Origin: a virus
Virus record (IMG/VR): IMGVR_UViG_3300048927_000352
Location: 1-38,521 of that record
Direction: 5' to 3' (one strand)
Length of the DNA: 38,521 nucleotides
The first letter of the stretch is position 1. Every line of letters starts with the position of its first letter. The translations under genes were made by a program, and so were the position numbers. Positions 3,230-21,451 of this stretch are shown here, piece by piece. The notes beneath the pieces were generated by a model. The model saw nothing but the letters and a program-made list of their open reading frames with translations, was not told the origin of the DNA and made no database searches.

Positions 3230-4015
3230 CTAGTATTTACCGGCGAGAACGATCGGATGCGTCGTTAGAACGTCATTGACGTCAAACTGGATATCGATCG
3301 GGGGATTGTACTGCCGGAGAACCAGGTTGTTGCCCTGCCTGCCGACGTACTCTTTGACGTATCCCCAAGGCGGAGAGCCGTCGTCTTCTATAGGCTTGAG
3401 CTGGACAATCACGTCGTCGCCTCGACGAGCTGGCTTTCCCGGGTGAACCCACACGGTCTCGCCAGCCTTAAAGCGCGGAAACATTGACTCGCCATCTATA
3501 TAGACCGCATAGGCACCCGCTACATTCTCTAGAGAAGGAGGGCAAACGACATAGTCGATAATGCTACCGTTGAATATGTAGCGGCCATCTTCTCCACCAA
3601 CTGCCATGCCGAGGACAGGGAGCATTTTGTTAGTCGTAACTACTTGAGTTGCAGGCATTATTGTTGCGTTTGGAGCAACGAGTGTGCTTGGCTTTTGAGG
3701 ATAAGGTATCCCAAGGTCGTCTAGGATCGCTGTCGTTCCCGCGCGATACGAAGCGGTATGCGGAGCTGCTGGATCACCATTCCAAACATAATGATCTTGA
3801 CCGCGCGCCTCGCGAAAAAGCTCTTGCATCTTCCTGTGTGGAATGTCTAGCGCATCGGCGGCCGCCTTCCAATAATGAGGACGGAGAACGTCCCCCTTAA
3901 TGAAATTACTGATGTTCTGCTGACTGGTCCCCACGACTCGAGCGAGCTCGCTGGCGTTGCCGTCGAACTTTTCCTGAAGCTTTTCATTTAGCAGGCGGGT
4001 GAGGGCGTTTTCCAT
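3230..4015 (-). CDS. CI/LexA-like repressor with active S24 domain
   Basis: 261-residue lysogeny repressor. The N-terminal XRE helix-turn-helix is at about 18-45 (ELARVVGTSQQNISNFIKG). The C-terminal S24/LexA-like autoprotease domain spans about 130-255, with the catalytic Ser177 (DGESMFP) and Lys221 (GYVKEYVG). Such repressors cut themselves when RecA is activated by DNA damage, releasing the phage. The usual Ala-Gly cleavage pair is not evident; the matching region reads GMAVGGEDG (136-144). The start at 4015 has TGAGGAATA upstream. It is divergent from a plus-strand promoter at 4080 and convergent with nothing; the leftward operon continues downstream. Confidence 0.93.
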   Translation of the reverse strand: MENALTRLLNEKLQEKFDGNASELARVVGTSQQNISNFIKGDVLRPHYWKAAADALDIPHRKMQELFREARGQDHYVWNGDPAAPHTASYRAGTTAILDDLGIPYPQKPSTLVAPNATIMPATQVVTTNKMLPVLGMAVGGEDGRYIFNGSIIDYVVCPPSLENVAGAYAVYIDGESMFPRFKAGETVWVHPGKPARRGDDVIVQLKPIEDDGSPPWGYVKEYVGRQGNNLVLRQYNPPIDIQFDVNDVLTTHPIVLAGKY

Positions 4016-5259: not shown

Positions 5260-5282
5260 ACCCTGTAACTCCGGAGGAAATC

Positions 5283-5311
5283 TTGACAAATTTGTAAAAA
5301 TAGTTTAGTTT
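5283..5311 (+). promoter_or_regulatory. Early rightward promoter with operator ACAAATTTGT
   Basis: TTGACA (5283-5288), 17-base spacer, TAGTTT (5306-5311), with the palindrome ACAAATTTGT at 5286-5295 overlapping the -35 box. A near copy of the whole element is at 16107-16135. On the opposite strand TTGACA (5333-5328) could serve the divergent repressor gene, with its -10 region overlapping this one. This is the likely start of the early operon. Confidence 0.75.
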
Positions 5312-5365
5312 CACAACCCTGTCGCTTTGTCAACCACGAGGCGGCCACCACTCAGAGGAGACGAC

Positions 5366-8474: not shown

Positions 8475-9053
8475 ATGGCCAAGATTGGCGTCAGAGTTGA
8501 AGCGACCGAAGAGAACACCCAGCAGCGCGATTTCACCAACCTGCCGAATGGCGACTACCAGCTTGAAATCAGTGCGTCTGAAATCAAGGAAAAGAACGAA
8601 GGCACCCGTGACCATGCCATCAACTTGAGCGTCACAATCGACGTGCTTGCACCGGAAGAATTGAAGGGCCGCAAGCTGTTCAACAACTACAACCTGCAGC
8701 ATCCAAGCGCGCAGGTTCAGGAGATCGGTCAGCGCCAGTTTGCCTGCCTTCTGCGCTCCCTCGGCCTGAACGAAGCTCCAGAAGATTCTGACGAGCTCCA
8801 CTTCATCTCCTTCATGGCTCGCGTTGGCATGGGCAAGGACAGCAAGGAGAAGAATGCTGACGGCTCGCCGAAATACGCTGCCCGCAACGAGCTCAAGAAA
8901 TACCACTATCCTGACGAAGGTAATCTGCCAGAGCCGAAGGTCGATGCTGCGCCTGTTGCAGCCAACGACAATCGCCGCACCGTCGCCAGCAATGACAACA
9001 AGCCAGCCCCTGCGGCCGCTGGCACGACGCGCCGCCCTTGGGGGCAGAAATAA
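8475..9053 (+). CDS. DUF669-type single-stranded DNA-binding protein
   Basis: 192-residue protein with the DUF669 pattern, for example FTNLPNGDYQLEI near the start, then GRKLFNNYNL and a conserved ARVGMG segment. DUF669 proteins are phage SSB-like partners of Sak4. The C-terminal 50 residues are a low-complexity Ala/Pro tail with two ANDN-type motifs (AANDNRR, ASNDNKP), ending RPWGQK and not in the acidic tip of bacterial SSB. The start has AAGGAGAC upstream. Confidence 0.82.
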   Translation: MAKIGVRVEATEENTQQRDFTNLPNGDYQLEISASEIKEKNEGTRDHAINLSVTIDVLAPEELKGRKLFNNYNLQHPSAQVQEIGQRQFACLLRSLGLNEAPEDSDELHFISFMARVGMGKDSKEKNADGSPKYAARNELKKYHYPDEGNLPEPKVDAAPVAANDNRRTVASNDNKPAPAAAGTTRRPWGQK

Positions 9054-9241
9054 TGGCTGCTCACACTGACAAGACCCTGAATACCATTCGAGGTAAAAAC
9101 ATCGTCGGCGCAGCCACTACCGATGATGTGTTTGTCCTTCTGCAACATATCGATGCCCTCGAAGATCTTCTGGATGAAGGCGACGACGATGACGCCTTCG
9201 GGACCGAAGGATGGCGCCACAGGCTAGGCATCGGCGACTAA
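9053..9241 (+). CDS. Small acidic phage protein
   Basis: 62-residue protein of unknown function with an acidic centre (LLDEGDDDDAFG) and the ending GTEGWRHRLGIGD, a pattern that recurs in small rhizobial phage proteins. The ATG at 9053 overlaps the stop of the SSB-like gene by one base (TAATG). Confidence 0.65.
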   Translation: MAAHTDKTLNTIRGKNIVGAATTDDVFVLLQHIDALEDLLDEGDDDDAFGTEGWRHRLGIGD

Positions 9242-9251
9242 CCCCACCAGC

Positions 9252-9303
9252 GCGGGCTGCCTCACCAGCGGCCCGCTACTTCACCACAATTGAGGAGATC
9301 ACA
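9252..9303 (+). promoter_or_regulatory. Intercistronic hairpin plus GAGGAGA leader
   Basis: GCGGGC (9252-9257) and GCCCGC (9271-9276) form a hairpin whose loop contains CTCACCAG. It is followed by CTTCACCACA and GAGGAGATC before the lipoprotein start at 9304. Confidence 0.5.
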
Positions 9304-9711
9304 ATGAAGCGCATGTTTATTGCTGCCGCTCTGGCACTATCTGCCGCTCTTGCCGGATGTTCTGACGACGCACAGGTTGCCTCGCAGAACCTGTCGAAAG
9401 CTGCCGACAATTTCGAAGTTAGTCGCCGCATCATTTTCTACAACGGCATCACTGACACATACATGCTCACAATCGAAGGCTTGTGCAGCATCTCTGTCGG
9501 CGACCGAAAACTCGACGTGACCTGCAAGACTGGGCCGGGACAGTACAAGAAGCACTTCCTCGGCCTGTCCGACAACGTCACGTTTTTCGCCGAGCAGTTG
9601 GAAGGCAAGGCCGTCAGCGCCTACCACTACCGCGTCACCTTCAAGCCTCAGTCCATCATTCCCGATGTGAACTTCCGCGGCGACGCAAAAGAACTCACCA
9701 CCAATCGGTAA
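9304..9711 (+). CDS. Phage-encoded lipoprotein
   Basis: 135-residue protein with a lipoprotein signal peptide: MKRMF, a hydrophobic stretch and the lipobox LAG-Cys19. After cleavage it would be anchored in a membrane facing the periplasm. The mature part (RRIIFYNGITDTYMLTIEG, CKTGPGQYKKHF, YHYRVTFKPQ) looks like a beta-sandwich and resembles phage proteins annotated as beta-sandwich lipoproteins. A surface lipoprotein expressed early could block superinfection; that role is inference. Start chosen for GAGGAGATC upstream. Confidence 0.75.
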   Translation: MKRMFIAAALALSAALAGCSDDAQVASQNLSKAADNFEVSRRIIFYNGITDTYMLTIEGLCSISVGDRKLDVTCKTGPGQYKKHFLGLSDNVTFFAEQLEGKAVSAYHYRVTFKPQSIIPDVNFRGDAKELTTNR

Positions 9712-9735
9712 TTGGCGCCACAAGAGGAGAATTGC

Positions 9736-9978
9736 ATGACCACGTTTGAACGAGTGAGAAAATGCATCGTCGATTGCGCAGGCGTCGATGAAAATGCCGT
9801 AAACACCGATGCTACACTTTATGGAGATCTCGATCTCGATAGTTTGGATGAGGTGGACCTAGCAATCACGCTCGAGGAGGAGTTCGGCATCGAAATCAGC
9901 GACGAGCAGATTGAGGCCAGCTTCACAGTCGGCGACATTGTGAATGTCGTTGATGCACAGTTGAGGAGATTTGCATGA
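9736..9978 (+). CDS. Phage-encoded acyl carrier protein
   Basis: 80-residue acidic protein with the acyl carrier protein fold: ERVRKCIVDCAGVDEN in helix 1, the phosphopantetheine motif D35-Ser36-L37 (LDLDSLDEVDL) and the recognition helix EEEFGIEISDEQIE. Ser36 would carry 4'-phosphopantetheine. Bacterial ACPs carry acyl chains for fatty acid, lipid A or nodulation-factor synthesis; which one a phage would use is unknown. The ATG at 9736 has GAGGAGAATTGC upstream. The stop overlaps the next start (ATGA), tying it to the nucleotidyltransferase-like gene. Confidence 0.88.
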   Translation: MTTFERVRKCIVDCAGVDENAVNTDATLYGDLDLDSLDEVDLAITLEEEFGIEISDEQIEASFTVGDIVNVVDAQLRRFA

Positions 9979-10811
9979 CGAACTACAAGGCGGAAGCCAG
10001 AAAGATCACCGAGAAATGCTACCCGATCCCCGGCGCATTCGCTGCCGGCGGAGCGGTGACGAGCGTATTCACCAATCGAGACATCAACGACGTCGACGTC
10101 TACTTCAAGAGCCGTGAGGCCTTCGAATATGCTGTCGCGGACGCATACGAGAATGGCTTCTGGTGCGTATCCACGACAAAGCGCGCCGTGACATTTACAG
10201 ACAATGGCGGCGCTCCCATCCAGTTCATGCACTTCGATTTCTTCCCGACAGCGCAGGACATCTTTGACGCTTTCGACTTCACCGTCGTGATGGGCGCACT
10301 GGATTTCGACACTGACGAATTCTCGTTCCACGACGACTTCCTGAAACACAACTCTCAACGCTTTCTGCGATTCCATCCTGGCACTCGCTATCCACTGGCG
10401 TCAGCGACACGCGTCCTCAAGTATCAGGATCGCGGTTACACGATCGGCAAGGGGGATATCCTCAAGATCGCGCTGGCTGGTCGTAAGGTGAAGATCGACA
10501 CCTGGGAGGAACTCAAAGATCAGATCGGCGGCGCTTATGGCGAGAAGGTCGTTCTCGGCACGGAAGGCACTCCTTACTCGATCGATGCCGCAATCTCGGC
10601 GTTGACCGTTGATGAAGAAGGCAAGGATGCGTGGGTCGCAAACGACAACGAAGAGCAGCCGGGCAGTGCGATTGGTCTGTTCAAGAAAATCGCTGAGCTG
10701 AAGGGCGAGCAGTTCGACGAGAACCGGTACGATGAAGGTGAGGATGGCTGCGGATATCCGATTGGCTACGAGCCGCCCAAGAAGCGGTCGCCGTTTTCTT
10801 TCGCAGCCTAA
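9975..10811 (+). CDS. Nucleotidyltransferase-like protein
   Basis: 278-residue protein whose N-terminus has the polymerase-beta-type nucleotidyltransferase signature: G25-G26, twelve residues, then D39-V-D41-V-Y-F (DINDVDVYF). A third acidic residue could be supplied by QFMHFDFF. The rest (FDFTVVMGALDF, then LASATRVLKYQDRGY) fits the helical part of such enzymes. The substrate is not known. It contains VANDNEE and ends with a proline/lysine-rich tail. It is translationally coupled to the acyl carrier protein gene, which suggests a joint task. Confidence 0.6.
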   Translation: MTNYKAEARKITEKCYPIPGAFAAGGAVTSVFTNRDINDVDVYFKSREAFEYAVADAYENGFWCVSTTKRAVTFTDNGGAPIQFMHFDFFPTAQDIFDAFDFTVVMGALDFDTDEFSFHDDFLKHNSQRFLRFHPGTRYPLASATRVLKYQDRGYTIGKGDILKIALAGRKVKIDTWEELKDQIGGAYGEKVVLGTEGTPYSIDAAISALTVDEEGKDAWVANDNEEQPGSAIGLFKKIAELKGEQFDENRYDEGEDGCGYPIGYEPPKKRSPFSFAA

Positions 10812-10825
10812 CCACCACAGACCAC

Positions 10826-10876
10826 GCCTGTCGCTCACCACGGCAGGCACCACCACACACCACCGAGGAGACACCC
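10826..10876 (+). promoter_or_regulatory. Intercistronic hairpin plus GAGGAGA leader
   Basis: GCCTG (10826-10830) and CAGGC (10844-10848) form a hairpin with CTCACCACGG in the loop. It is followed by CACCACCACAC and GAGGAGACACCC before the clamp start at 10877. Confidence 0.45.
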
Positions 10877-11929
10877 ATGCACCTTGTCATCCACAAGGAA
10901 GACCTGACGCGTGCGCTTGCGGCCACAACGAAGGTCGTCGAGGCAAGATCCACCATTCCCATCCTGTCGAGCGTGCAAGTTGCGGCCGCAGGTGAGGGCC
11001 TTGCGATCACCGCAACTGACCTCGATATTATCGCCACCGCAGGCGTACCTGCTGAGGTCAGCAAGCCAGGCAACATCTGCGTCAGCGCGAAGCTGCTCAA
11101 CGACATCGCGCGCAAGGCAACCGGCGACATCACCGTGACACTGAATGGTGACAAACTTCTGGTGAAGTCCGGACGGTCGCGCTTTTCTCTTGCCACGCTG
11201 TCAGCAGATGACTTCCCAACGCTCGGCGACGACAAGTTCGATGCCGAATTCGAGATCGATTTGGCCGCGCTGTTCGCGCCGGTTTCGTTTGCGATCTCGA
11301 CAGAGGAAACGCGCTATTATCTGAACGGCGTGTTCTTCAAGGGCGGCGGCAAGTCGGAAGCCGTAGCCACCGACGGCCATCGTCTCGGGCGTCACATCGG
11401 CCCGGAGCTGCCAGCCTTCGAGGGCATTATCGTTCCGCGCAAAACGGTCGGCCTGCTGCCGAAGGGCAAGGTGCAGGTCGCCGTCAGCCCGCAGAAGATA
11501 CGCATCGTGTCGGATGACGTGCGCATCACGTCGAAGCTGATCGACGGCACATTTCCCGATTATGAGCGTGTCATTCCGAAGAGCAATGAGCGTGTTGTGA
11601 CCGTAGACAGGGATGCGCTGATGAAGGCGTCCGACCGGGTGTCGACGGTGTCGTCTGAGCGTGGCCGCGCCGTGAAGTTCAGCATCGCGCCCGGCAGCAT
11701 CGCGCTTGCTGTGGCAGCCGGCGAAGCCTCTGCGAATGATGAGGTGGAGGCCGAATACAGCGGCGAGCCGATGGATATCGGTTTCAACGCCGCCTACGTC
11801 CGTGACGTGCTGAATGTGTTGCCAGCTGGTCCGGTCAAGCTGGCCTTGCAGGACGGCGGCACGCCGGGGCTGATAACGTCCGACGGCCTCGAGGGGCTGA
11901 CGCTCGTTTGCATGCCGATGCGGGTGTAG
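10877..11929 (+). CDS. dnaN: Phage DNA polymerase III beta subunit (sliding clamp)
   Basis: 350-residue DnaN homologue, close to the usual length. It starts in the family manner (KEDLTRALAATTKVVEARST and IPILSSV), has LATLSADDFPTL, the motif EETRYYLNGVFF, AVATDGHRLGRH and IDGTFPDYERVIP, and ends CMPMRV like bacterial clamps (MPMRL). As a ring it would hold polymerase and other proteins on DNA. The host has its own dnaN, so this copy probably serves phage replication with host polymerase. It has GAGGAGACACCC before the ATG, and the next gene starts 3 bases after its stop. Confidence 0.95.
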   Translation: MHLVIHKEDLTRALAATTKVVEARSTIPILSSVQVAAAGEGLAITATDLDIIATAGVPAEVSKPGNICVSAKLLNDIARKATGDITVTLNGDKLLVKSGRSRFSLATLSADDFPTLGDDKFDAEFEIDLAALFAPVSFAISTEETRYYLNGVFFKGGGKSEAVATDGHRLGRHIGPELPAFEGIIVPRKTVGLLPKGKVQVAVSPQKIRIVSDDVRITSKLIDGTFPDYERVIPKSNERVVTVDRDALMKASDRVSTVSSERGRAVKFSIAPGSIALAVAAGEASANDEVEAEYSGEPMDIGFNAAYVRDVLNVLPAGPVKLALQDGGTPGLITSDGLEGLTLVCMPMRV

Positions 11930-16052: not shown

Positions 16053-16106
16053 CCCAATTTTGTGAACTGACTAGATACCAGCATTGAGTTTACGGTCTCT
16101 TAAATC

Positions 16107-16135
16107 TTGACAAATTTGTAAAAACGGTTTAGCTT
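16107..16135 (+). promoter_or_regulatory. Second rightward promoter with operator ACAAATTTGT
   Basis: TTGACA (16107-16112), 17 bases, TAGCTT (16130-16135), with ACAAATTTGT at 16110-16119. It is nearly identical to the promoter at 5283-5311 and keeps the same spacing. It restarts the early operon downstream of the opposite-strand membrane gene and should be under the same repressor. Confidence 0.75.
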
Positions 16136-16144
16136 CATACTCTG

Positions 16145-16182: not shown

Positions 16183-16710
16183 ATGAGCGAGAGAAGATCC
16201 GCCAATGACAACTATTTGGCCGCCGACGTCGCCAACCTCGAAGCGCTATTCGCCGACATGCTGGCCGCTTACCCAGAGCTGGAAGCGGACGAAGAGCTGC
16301 GCGCTGATATGCTCGAAGGTGAGACGAACTTCCACGCCGTCCTGACGCGTCTCGTTAATGGTGAGCGTGACGCCGACAGCCTGGCCAAGGCCGTGGCTGG
16401 CCGTATATCAGACCTGCAAGCACGCAAGTTGCGGGCCGAGCGCCGCAAGGAAGCCATGCGCAGTCTGATGTTCAAGCTGTTGAAAGCAGCCGGCGTGCCG
16501 CGTGTGCCGCTGGCCGAGGCGACGATCTCCATTGGCAAGAAAGCTGCGTCGGTTGAGATCATTGACGAGGCCGCGTTACCGAAGGCCTACGTGCGCGTTT
16601 CTACGTCGCCGGACAAGACCGCCATCAAGGAAGCGTTGCAGGCGGGGAAGAAGGTCCGCGGTGCGCAGATGGGTGAGGCGGGTGAGCAGCTGTCGGTGAG
16701 GGTGGCATGA
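16183..16710 (+). CDS. Siphovirus Gp157-family protein
   Basis: 175-residue protein with the Gp157 pattern: an N-terminal helical region (NLEALFADMLAAYPELEADE), a long charged coiled-coil segment (LQARKLRAERRKEAMR) and a C-terminal part (ATISIGKKAASVEIIDE, then KTAIKEALQAGKKVRGAQM). The family is common in early regions of siphoviruses; in Streptococcus a member has been linked with phage resistance, but the mechanism is not known. It begins with RSANDNY. Start has GAGGAGATACGA; the stop overlaps the next ATG (ATGA). Confidence 0.85.
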   Translation: MSERRSANDNYLAADVANLEALFADMLAAYPELEADEELRADMLEGETNFHAVLTRLVNGERDADSLAKAVAGRISDLQARKLRAERRKEAMRSLMFKLLKAAGVPRVPLAEATISIGKKAASVEIIDEAALPKAYVRVSTSPDKTAIKEALQAGKKVRGAQMGEAGEQLSVRVA

Positions 16711-19068: not shown

Positions 19069-19439
19069 CCAAACTCCCAACCACCCCGCGCCAGCACACG
19101 CCGACGGTCGACGCCGACCATAATCCGACCACCTGCTTTGTCTGCGGTATGCACGCCTTCGGGATCGGCGTGAACGCCAACGGCCGCGACAAAGACCCTC
19201 ACTATATCTGCCGGAGGTGCGCTGTGGGCATCGACAATTACAAGAAGATCGATCGCCTCGATGACTACGAGCTGCGTGCCTTAGACGCGGGCGTTGATGC
19301 CGTCGGCGAGTACATCGCCGAGCATGGCGTGACTGACCTCGCGCACTTCGACGAGCTCATGCAGCGCATGATGGTGAAGGCTGCGTGGGAGGGATGCGCC
19401 AGAGGCCTAAGGGCCGCTTTGTCGGAGGCGCCGTTCTAG
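19065..19439 (+). CDS. Zinc-ribbon phage protein (DUF6511-like)
   Basis: 124-residue protein with C24-x2-C27 (CFVCG) and C49-x2-C52 (CRRC), a probable zinc ribbon, followed by a helical part (YELRALDAGVDAVGEYIAEH). The arrangement resembles phage proteins with a DUF6511 domain. Function unknown. ATG 19065 sits in the 12-base direct repeat and has GAGGTGG upstream. Confidence 0.62.
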   Translation: MTKLPTTPRQHTPTVDADHNPTTCFVCGMHAFGIGVNANGRDKDPHYICRRCAVGIDNYKKIDRLDDYELRALDAGVDAVGEYIAEHGVTDLAHFDELMQRMMVKAAWEGCARGLRAALSEAPF

Positions 19440-19507
19440 AAGGATCAGGAATTTCAACCGCAATTCCGAGCCCGACCAAGGCGAGGACACCACACCGAGG
19501 AGACGAT

Positions 19508-21451
19508 ATGACGATCAATTTCAGCCCGAAGAATGACGTGTTGATAATGGACAGCTTTGCTGGAGGAGGCGGCGCTTCTACCGGCATTGAGCTTGCGCTT
19601 GGAAGATCGCCTGACTTGGCCATTAATCACAATCCGGCCGCGCTTGCGCTACATGCAGCTAATCACCCGGAGACGCTTCATCTGTCGGAGAACGTCTATA
19701 AAGTCGACCCGCTCGACTATTTGCGGCGGAGGCATGTTGGCCTTGCTTGGTTCTCGCCGGACTGCAAGCATTTCAGCAAAGCCAAAGGCGGCAAGCCAGT
19801 GGAGCGCAATATCCGCGACCTCTGCTGGATCATTCCCGGCTGGATCGAGCGTATCCAGAAGAGCGGCGGCAAAGTCGACGTCGTAATTATGGAGAACGTC
19901 GAGGAGTTCAAGGACTACGGCCCACTGATGCAGACCGAGCGTGGACTAATGCCTGATCCATCCCGCAAAGGCGAGACGTTCAAGGACTGGTGCAAGAAGT
20001 TGCGCAAACTCGGTGGAAAGATCGAGTTTCGAGAACTGCGCGCGTGCGATTACGGTGCGCCGACTATCCGCAAGCGCTTGTTTGTTATCGTACGTTTCGA
20101 TGGAAAGCCGATCGTTTGGCCTGAGCCCACGCATGCCAAGCCAACTGATGCCGATGTTATAGCTGGGCGCAAGCTGGCATGGCGCACGGCAGCCGAGTGC
20201 ATCGACTGGAGCCTGCCTTGCCCGTCGATCTTCGACACATCATTGCAGGTGATGGCTCGCCATGGACTACGCGCAGTGCGTCCGCTGGCCGATGCCACTA
20301 TGTCGCGTGTCGCCCGCGGCATGAAGCGTTACGTGCTGGATGCTGAGCGGCCATTTCTGGTGAACCTGACACACGGTGGACGTGTTGAAGACCTTGGTCA
20401 TCCGTTCATGACTATCACCGGTGCTAATCGCGGAGAGAAGGCAGTAGTGGCACCCAACCTCATGAGCCTGAAGGGCAGTGCCCGCAGGGATAGCGCGGCC
20501 GACGATCCCCATCCGACCGTTCTCGCCGGTGGCGGGCACTCGGCCGTCATAGCGCCCGTTCTTAGCTATGCGCAGCAGGGCGGCGCCAACCGCTCCGTCG
20601 AGGATCCGCACCACACCATTTGCGCCAGCCTGAAGGATCAGAACGCAGTCATTATCCCAACGCTAGTAGGCTGCGGCGGCCGAGCCGGGCAGTCGCGCCC
20701 GCGTGGTGGCGATGAGCCGACCGCGACCATCACGGCGAAGGCGGACGGCTGTGTGTCGATGGCCTTCATCGCTCAGCACAATAACGATAACCGCCGTATC
20801 GGTGGCGTTAATCCAGGTCGTGACGCTGGCGAGCCAATGTCGACGGTCACCGCAACTGGAGCGCAGCAAGGTGTCGTGTCGGCTTTCGTCTCTCGTCAAT
20901 TCGGCGCATCGATCGGACACGACATTGAGGAACCATCGGCGACCGTGACTGCTGGCGTCAATAAATCGGCGCTCGTGGCACCCTACCTGCAAGCATACTA
21001 TGGCACCGGTGACGGTGGCGAGGAGAGTCAGCCAGCTAGGACAATCACGACCAAGGATCGACATGGACATGTTGAGGCTAGCCTCATCGTACCGCCGTTC
21101 ACCACGGATCAGGAGCAACGTGCCCGGCAGGTTGCTGACTTTATGCGCGATCATGGTTTCTGGGACGACCGCGAATTCGTGACACTGTCGATCGGTTCGG
21201 ACACCTTCGTAATTGTCGATATCGGCATGCGCATGCTGACGCCTCGTGAGCTCTACAATGCGCAGGGCTTTCCGTCAGACTATCGCATTGATGAGGATGC
21301 CTATGGGAATGCGTTCCCGAAGTCGGTTCAGGTCAGCTGTGTCGGCAACTCGGTCTCGCCACCGGTCGCCAAGGCTCTAGTCGCAGCCAACTGCGGTCAC
21401 TTGGCGGCCGACAACGAAAATTTCAGTGAACCGGTCCAGATCGCCGCTTGA
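19508..21451 (+). CDS. C5-cytosine DNA methyltransferase with repeated target-recognition region
   Basis: 647-residue cytosine methyltransferase. Motif I is DSFAGGGGAS (15-24), the catalytic Cys86 lies in FSPDCKHFS (usual motif PPCQxFS, here Pro-Asp-Cys), motif VI is ENV (130-132), then RKRLF (188-192), and motif X is VGNSVSPP near the end. Between motifs VIII and IX/X, residues 283-524 hold about seven units of 33-40 residues, each with a hydrophobic start, a Gly-rich turn, and P-x-x-T(I/V)T. These units probably form the target recognition region. It would methylate phage DNA against restriction. ATG 19508 has GAGGAGACGAT. Confidence 0.92.
   Translation: MTINFSPKNDVLIMDSFAGGGGASTGIELALGRSPDLAINHNPAALALHAANHPETLHLSENVYKVDPLDYLRRRHVGLAWFSPDCKHFSKAKGGKPVERNIRDLCWIIPGWIERIQKSGGKVDVVIMENVEEFKDYGPLMQTERGLMPDPSRKGETFKDWCKKLRKLGGKIEFRELRACDYGAPTIRKRLFVIVRFDGKPIVWPEPTHAKPTDADVIAGRKLAWRTAAECIDWSLPCPSIFDTSLQVMARHGLRAVRPLADATMSRVARGMKRYVLDAERPFLVNLTHGGRVEDLGHPFMTITGANRGEKAVVAPNLMSLKGSARRDSAADDPHPTVLAGGGHSAVIAPVLSYAQQGGANRSVEDPHHTICASLKDQNAVIIPTLVGCGGRAGQSRPRGGDEPTATITAKADGCVSMAFIAQHNNDNRRIGGVNPGRDAGEPMSTVTATGAQQGVVSAFVSRQFGASIGHDIEEPSATVTAGVNKSALVAPYLQAYYGTGDGGEESQPARTITTKDRHGHVEASLIVPPFTTDQEQRARQVADFMRDHGFWDDREFVTLSIGSDTFVIVDIGMRMLTPRELYNAQGFPSDYRIDEDAYGNAFPKSVQVSCVGNSVSPPVAKALVAANCGHLAADNENFSEPVQIAA

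Follow-up and report, generated by a model that had tools for sequence, protein, structure and literature searches.

Introduction

The nearest named relative of one of the two proteins described here is Gad2 (Gabija anti-defence 2), the anti-Gabija protein of Bacillus phage SPbetaL7/SPbetaL6 (OQ921347, protein WIT28108.1). A Gad2-like reading frame makes up the second half of the gene pair under study. PMC12904381 lists Gad2 among the inhibitors of Gabija, its mechanism being given as unknown, and Gabija is reported to target phage DNA that has its ends covered, either by Mu Gam or by an exonuclease plus an annealing protein (PMC12407980). Acyl carrier proteins (ACPs) are also found as auxiliary genes of phages (acpP, PHROG 5934); among 173 new Rhodobacteraceae prophages, acpP was present in 8 phages, sometimes as the sole auxiliary gene (PMC8224337).

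The window, by which we mean the whole stretch of DNA that was analysed (38,521 nucleotides), is an IMG/VR contig of a temperate, Rhizobiales-type phage. It encodes an ACP whose gene overlaps that of a protein of nucleotidyltransferase fold, hereafter NT. A sequence-only reading had proposed that carrier and transferase might form a coupled pathway, and an undescribed two-gene system. We report that they are two genuine, independent passenger genes and do not constitute a new two-gene system. What replaces this candidate is a testable lead, the short relatives of Gad2, dozens of which are carried by prophages of Rhizobiales type and others, in a recombination-operon slot that holds different genes in different phages.

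Results

The phage and its early region

The features discussed are collected in Table 1. The repressor is followed by genes for a Sak4-like ATPase, an SSB-like DUF669 protein, an RDF-like protein, the ACP, NT, a DnaN clamp, a Cas4-type exonuclease, a sigma factor and a helicase; beyond the helicase come a Gam-like protein, a C5 methylase, a Prim-Pol/ATPase and the terminase. Relatives are found within Rhizobium and Falsochrobactrum prophages. In a megablast comparison of the initial 25 kb to phages, only the RDF gene matched among the listed records, and its DNA-level likeness is to Rhizobium phage 16-3 and to mycobacteriophages. The start of the RDF/VG64 protein, MKRMFIAAALALSAALAGCSDD, resembles a lipoprotein signal, an unusual feature in a protein of the recombination directionality factor kind, which acts on DNA.

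Table 1. Position of the features of the window discussed in the text.
Feature	Position	Strand	Evidence
Integrase	545-1594	minus	
Repressor	3230-4015	minus	
SSB-like DUF669 protein, bounding the variable slot on the left	8475-9053	+	PF05037, 1.4e-10; phrog_6015 (single strand DNA binding protein), 1.4e-14
RDF/VG64-family protein, N-terminus lipoprotein-like, optional cassette of the slot	9301-9711	+	PF25682, 3.1e-55; phrog_478, 4.2e-56
ACP, 80 aa, Ser36 in DLDLDSLDE	9736-9978	+	PF00550, 4.8e-11
Junction, ACP 3′ end built from the NT leader (CAGTTGAGGAGATTTGCATGA)	9955-9978	+	leader common to relatives without ACP
NT, Gad2-family protein of predicted nucleotidyltransferase fold, 278 aa	9975-10811	+	AF2, Foldseek, 47% identity over 169 aa to Gad2
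DnaN-type sliding clamp, bounding the variable slot on the right	10877-11929	+	PF00712, PF02767, PF02768, each above cut-off
Sipho_Gp157 / Mu Gam-like end-protection protein, early region	16183-16710	+	PF05565, 1.1e-21; phrog_253, 5.4e-30

A genuine acyl carrier protein of a phage type

The sequence-only reading had recognised an ACP with its DSL site, and this holds: the protein passes the cut-offs of PF00550 (43.2 bits, cut-off 20.8) and of NCBIfam NF002148 (77.6 against 71), it aligns end to end with the B. subtilis ACP, and Ser36, the predicted phosphopantetheine-accepting serine, is invariant in the ACP alignment A5. With a dN/dS ratio of about 0.09-0.27, it is under purifying selection. 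Identity is 56-59% to the ACPs that three sister phages encode in the corresponding slot, these being 90-92% identical to each other, and 44% to a rhizobial chromosomal ACP. By these identities the protein is a phage-type ACP, belonging to a small phage subgroup. A recent pick-up of the gene from a rhizobial-type host was considered and is unlikely, because the chromosomal identity is lower than the identity to sister phages. The ACP shares fold family and DSL site with the phage-borne acpP products; it differs from them in being placed in a recombination-operon slot with no fab gene beside it among the genes annotated in the window. It would likely be charged at Ser36 by the AcpS of the host, and once charged would serve or compete in the acyl-ACP reactions of that host, with no part played by NT.

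NT has a predicted nucleotidyltransferase fold and an unusual third position

NT carries the motifs GG (25-26), DxD (39, 41), FDFT (100-103), DFLKH..QR and P..S..R..KY. The signature GG...DVDVYF that had first drawn attention to the protein is present in the stretch AAGGAVTS...INDVDVYF, and residues A24, G25, G26, D39, D41, D101 and R146 show no variation among 50 sequences or in a more distant set. NT therefore displays the GG/GS-then-DhD signature of the Pol-beta-type nucleotidyltransferase superfamily (G25, G26, D39, D41, in 50/50 sequences). The third catalytic acid of this superfamily is missing, as judged from a position assigned by alignment, not from superposed coordinates: the residue, Q83, is Gln in all 50 clade members, and the column is Glu in the relatives from Streptococcus B5 and Listeria P35. 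From strand order, this column would match the Glu of the CCA motif EVTT[FY]R. Gln83 thus speaks against a catalytic centre of the usual three-acid kind. Selection on NT is purifying, with a dN/dS of about 0.03-0.07.

The model obtained with AF2 from the 50-sequence alignment had a pLDDT of 86.9 and a pTM of 0.86. Nearly all top matches of this model in a Foldseek search of the PDB were CCA-adding enzymes and related tRNA nucleotidyltransferases (probability 1.00, best E value 3.3e-5, TM around 0.36-0.45). Since neither phmmer nor profile searches with NT turned up a relative among the PDB sequences, the fold assignment rests on AF2 and Foldseek. On this basis the nucleotidyltransferase fold suggested earlier is borne out, and we confidently predict it to be of the poly(A)-polymerase-head/CCA-enzyme type. 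A Pfam search with the NT sequence gave no match, the CCA-enzyme profile PF01743 included; the closest approach to PF01743 in the family was by the distant relative of Streptococcus B5 (E 0.083, below cut-off). An hhalign comparison of the NT profile with seven PF01743 proteins, taken from bacterial genomes and some of them shortened by automatic start choice, was weak (P 0.0022, probability 13%); it pairs GGAVTS..INDVDV of NT with GGAVRD..DVDIAT, and FDFT with RDFT. Against PHROGs, NT had several strong matches that are unnamed and a weak one to a nucleotidyltransferase PHROG. PADLOC found nothing for either ACP or NT. Compared to CCA-adding enzymes and tRNA nucleotidyltransferases (class II, poly(A) polymerase head, PF01743), NT thus has the same predicted fold, with GGxV...D.D and DFT in the same order; it differs from them by TM values that mostly stay in the range given above, by the lack of a Pfam match, by the Gln replacing Glu as third acid, and by being shorter, without the full tRNA-binding body.

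Genes of the NT family were present in 196 of 50,697 phage records against 1 of 72,556 plasmid records, and the family is for this reason essentially phage-borne. One large phage contig has two such genes in tandem (L055, 4628-7113).

NT is a short relative of Gad2

The match to Gad2 of SPbetaL6/L7 covers residues 21-189 of NT (E 3e-46). Common to both proteins are GG..TS.F..INDVDIYF, FDFT..MGA.D, H.DFLKHNSQR and R..KY, all family-invariant residues, and the Gln at the third-acid position. NT has therefore an N-terminal domain homologous to the nucleotidyltransferase-fold domain of the Gad2 family, and the second protein of the pair is not without precedent. The full-length architecture is different: Gad2 has some 400 aa (400 against 278 for NT), and alignment A1 contains no counterpart of its C-terminal half in NT. 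The hosts differ as well, Bacillus for the Gad2 phage and a Rhizobiales bacterium for the phage of the window. Because the C-terminal half is missing, NT is, as far as this alignment goes, a short Gad2-related protein and not Gad2, and for the same reason the anti-Gabija activity may not carry over to it. Its sequence places it, as a new and short relative, with a known counter-defence family.

ACP and NT are not linked

Co-occurrence of the two genes was looked for from both sides. Relatives of NT (56-100% identity) are encoded in 23 IMG/VR loci, and none of these has an ACP nearby, including the two loci, L003 and L004, where NT is 99.6% identical. No ACP was present anywhere on 23 related phage contigs; it was found only in host chromosomes. 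When viral contigs, genomes and SPbetaL7 were all included, the count rose to 73 NT loci, some of them redundant; no ACP was found within 6 kb of NT (0/73), and the clamp was downstream of NT in 33. The reciprocal scan of IMG/VR with a single ACP sequence returned nothing; an alignment used as query returned ACP loci, and none of 80 such loci had NT within 5 kb. The best relative of the ACP (L086) occupies the corresponding slot of a sister phage without NT; the SSB, clamp and Cas4 of that phage are 90-94% identical. The downstream neighbour of the ACP also differs from one phage to the other, being the clamp itself (L194), a 128-aa protein with an ATG overlap (L193), a DnaQ-like gene (L214/L086), or NT in the window. 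At the DNA level, positions 9300 to about 9962 of the window are extra sequence relative to nearly all NT relatives, one of which (L022) keeps the RDF part, and NT and clamp (9963-11925) are continuous together in the closest relatives.

With the clamp serving as bait, we then counted what lies between SSB and clamp in 49 loci having both borders. NT was found in 18, RDF and NT in 1, RDF in 1, ACP in 3 and other genes in 10, and 16 were empty. ACP and NT were together in none of the 49. With ACP in 3 and NT in 19 slots, one stacked case such as that of the window is what independent assortment leads to expect. The RDF cassette was seen alone in L203, and beside NT without ACP in L022/L199. These counts show that the stretch between SSB and DnaN is a variable slot, a hot spot for passenger genes in the early recombination/replication operon. 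The genes being unlinked in related phages, the coupling of carrier and transferase that had been proposed does not hold. Cassettes are gained and lost here independently of one another, probably through recombination at a repeated leader (hairpin GCGGGC...GCCCGC plus CACCACAAgaGGAG), and three of them, RDF-like, ACP and NT, happen to be stacked in the window. If the short Gad2 relatives are active, the slot itself would be a place to seek further counter-defence genes.

Among the other occupants of this region (8475-11929) were a 250-aa MGCDIHFYVEKK protein (L173, L177, L183, L185), proteins of 128 and 134 aa, and a DnaQ-like exonuclease and HNH-like proteins, these last two named from the sequence by eye.

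The overlap of the two genes

The ATGA overlap reported earlier is present (9975-9978). The final codons of the ACP, CAG TTG AGG AGA TTT GCA TGA, are the leader of NT, and this same string, TTGAGGAGATTTGCATGA, is found in L006, L008, L010, L011 and L014, all devoid of ACP. In relatives, the NT leader consists of the hairpin GCGGGC...GCCCGC, CACCAC and GAGGAGATTTGC, includes the ribosome-binding sequence, and leads in most cases to an ATGAC start whatever the gene upstream. The sister ACPs end otherwise (QLGAK, QLAAA, QLGAKKHG), and the ACP of L193 runs into the beginning of another gene, the one for the 128-aa protein. The ATGA junction is no more than an accident. Because the ACP end is the NT leader, the sister ends differ and another ACP overlaps another gene, the overlap looks like a recombination scar; it may couple translation today.

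The repeated leader (hairpin GCGGGC..GCCCGC, then CACCAC and GAGGAG) stands before several different cassette genes, at 9235-9300 of the window and in L003-L021, L086, L193 and L194, and may serve as a recombination joint.

Discussion

The reading that we favour, with somewhat better than even confidence, is that ACP and NT are independent cassettes of a variable slot, NT being a short member of the Gad2 family whose likeliest job is counter-defence. NT would protect the phage DNA, most likely by inhibiting Gabija or a similar OLD-family nuclease system, and might do so by binding an NTP and then transferring a nucleotide to a defence protein or to the end of a nucleic acid; with Gln for the third metal-binding acid, catalysis could be slow, altered or lost. 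The phage of the window carries a Gam-like protein, and also a Sak4-like protein together with a Cas4-type exonuclease. A Gad2-like cassette in the same operon would make sense because Gabija is reported to hit phages with Gam-like or exonuclease/annealing proteins, and by this analogy an optional cassette of that kind would fit counter-defence. The Gam-like gene is carried by sister phages with and without NT alike. The family is broad and almost all of its members are hypothetical, and one assayed member does not fix the function of all. Should they be active, the short relatives would offer a minimal, single-domain Gad2 with which to work out the Gad2 mechanism. A wider proposal can be made, to which we give tentative credit only: Gad2-like proteins, including the short form with little more than the nucleotidyltransferase domain, might be a phage-restricted clade of CCA-type nucleotidyltransferases with Gln for the third metal-binding acid, recruited as optional recombination-operon cassettes to neutralise defences of the nuclease type, Gabija among them, by which DNA ends carrying phage Gam or exonuclease proteins are sensed.

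Recombination genes recur around the NT family in unrelated phages: L025 has an SSB upstream and an exonuclease downstream, both named from the sequence by eye, and in Streptococcus phage B5 the NT relative is flanked by Erf and an ssDNA-binding protein. This repeated placement by SSB, clamp, Erf or exonuclease genes, together with the CCA/poly(A)-polymerase-type fold, would suit a DNA- or RNA-end enzyme of phage replication or recombination, active for instance in end tailing or repair and not in counter-defence, the anti-Gabija effect of Gad2 then resulting from altered DNA ends. We consider this unlikely. NT is dispensable, being missing from 30 of the 49 sister slots, and the 12 NT-negative contigs searched, ACP-positive ones included, had no copy elsewhere (a search with no positive control of its own, made with the profile that found NT in the census); moreover, the Gln replaces the third catalytic acid throughout the Gad2-like clade. 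That same Gln, invariant in the clade where the relatives of B5 and P35 have Glu, could instead signal a catalytically dead nucleotidyltransferase that binds nucleotides or a defence protein, or acts as a decoy for them; the conservation of GG and of both DxD acids in all 50 sequences and in the distant set rather suggests that metal/NTP chemistry was kept, and we hold a dead enzyme to be quite improbable. That the ACP is the substrate or carrier of NT (the ACP, or an acyl group bound to it, being for example nucleotidylated, with the overlap ensuring stoichiometric synthesis) is hardly credible, as overlapping reading frames and purifying selection on both genes speak for it but the pair never recurs in 73 NT loci, 80 ACP loci and 49 slots, sister ACPs overlap or abut other genes, and the overlap is made from an old NT leader; as an evolved module, such a pathway is already contradicted.

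Two other features of the window were noted. Two 36-base copies, 92% identical, of AAATCTTGACAAATTTGTAAAAA..., with TTGACA and the palindromic ACAAATTTGT, are found at 5278-5313 and 16102-16137; both are intergenic and are likely early promoter/operator sites. The C5 cytosine methylase (19385-21451) is 688 aa long, with some 350 residues between its conserved N- and C-terminal motifs.
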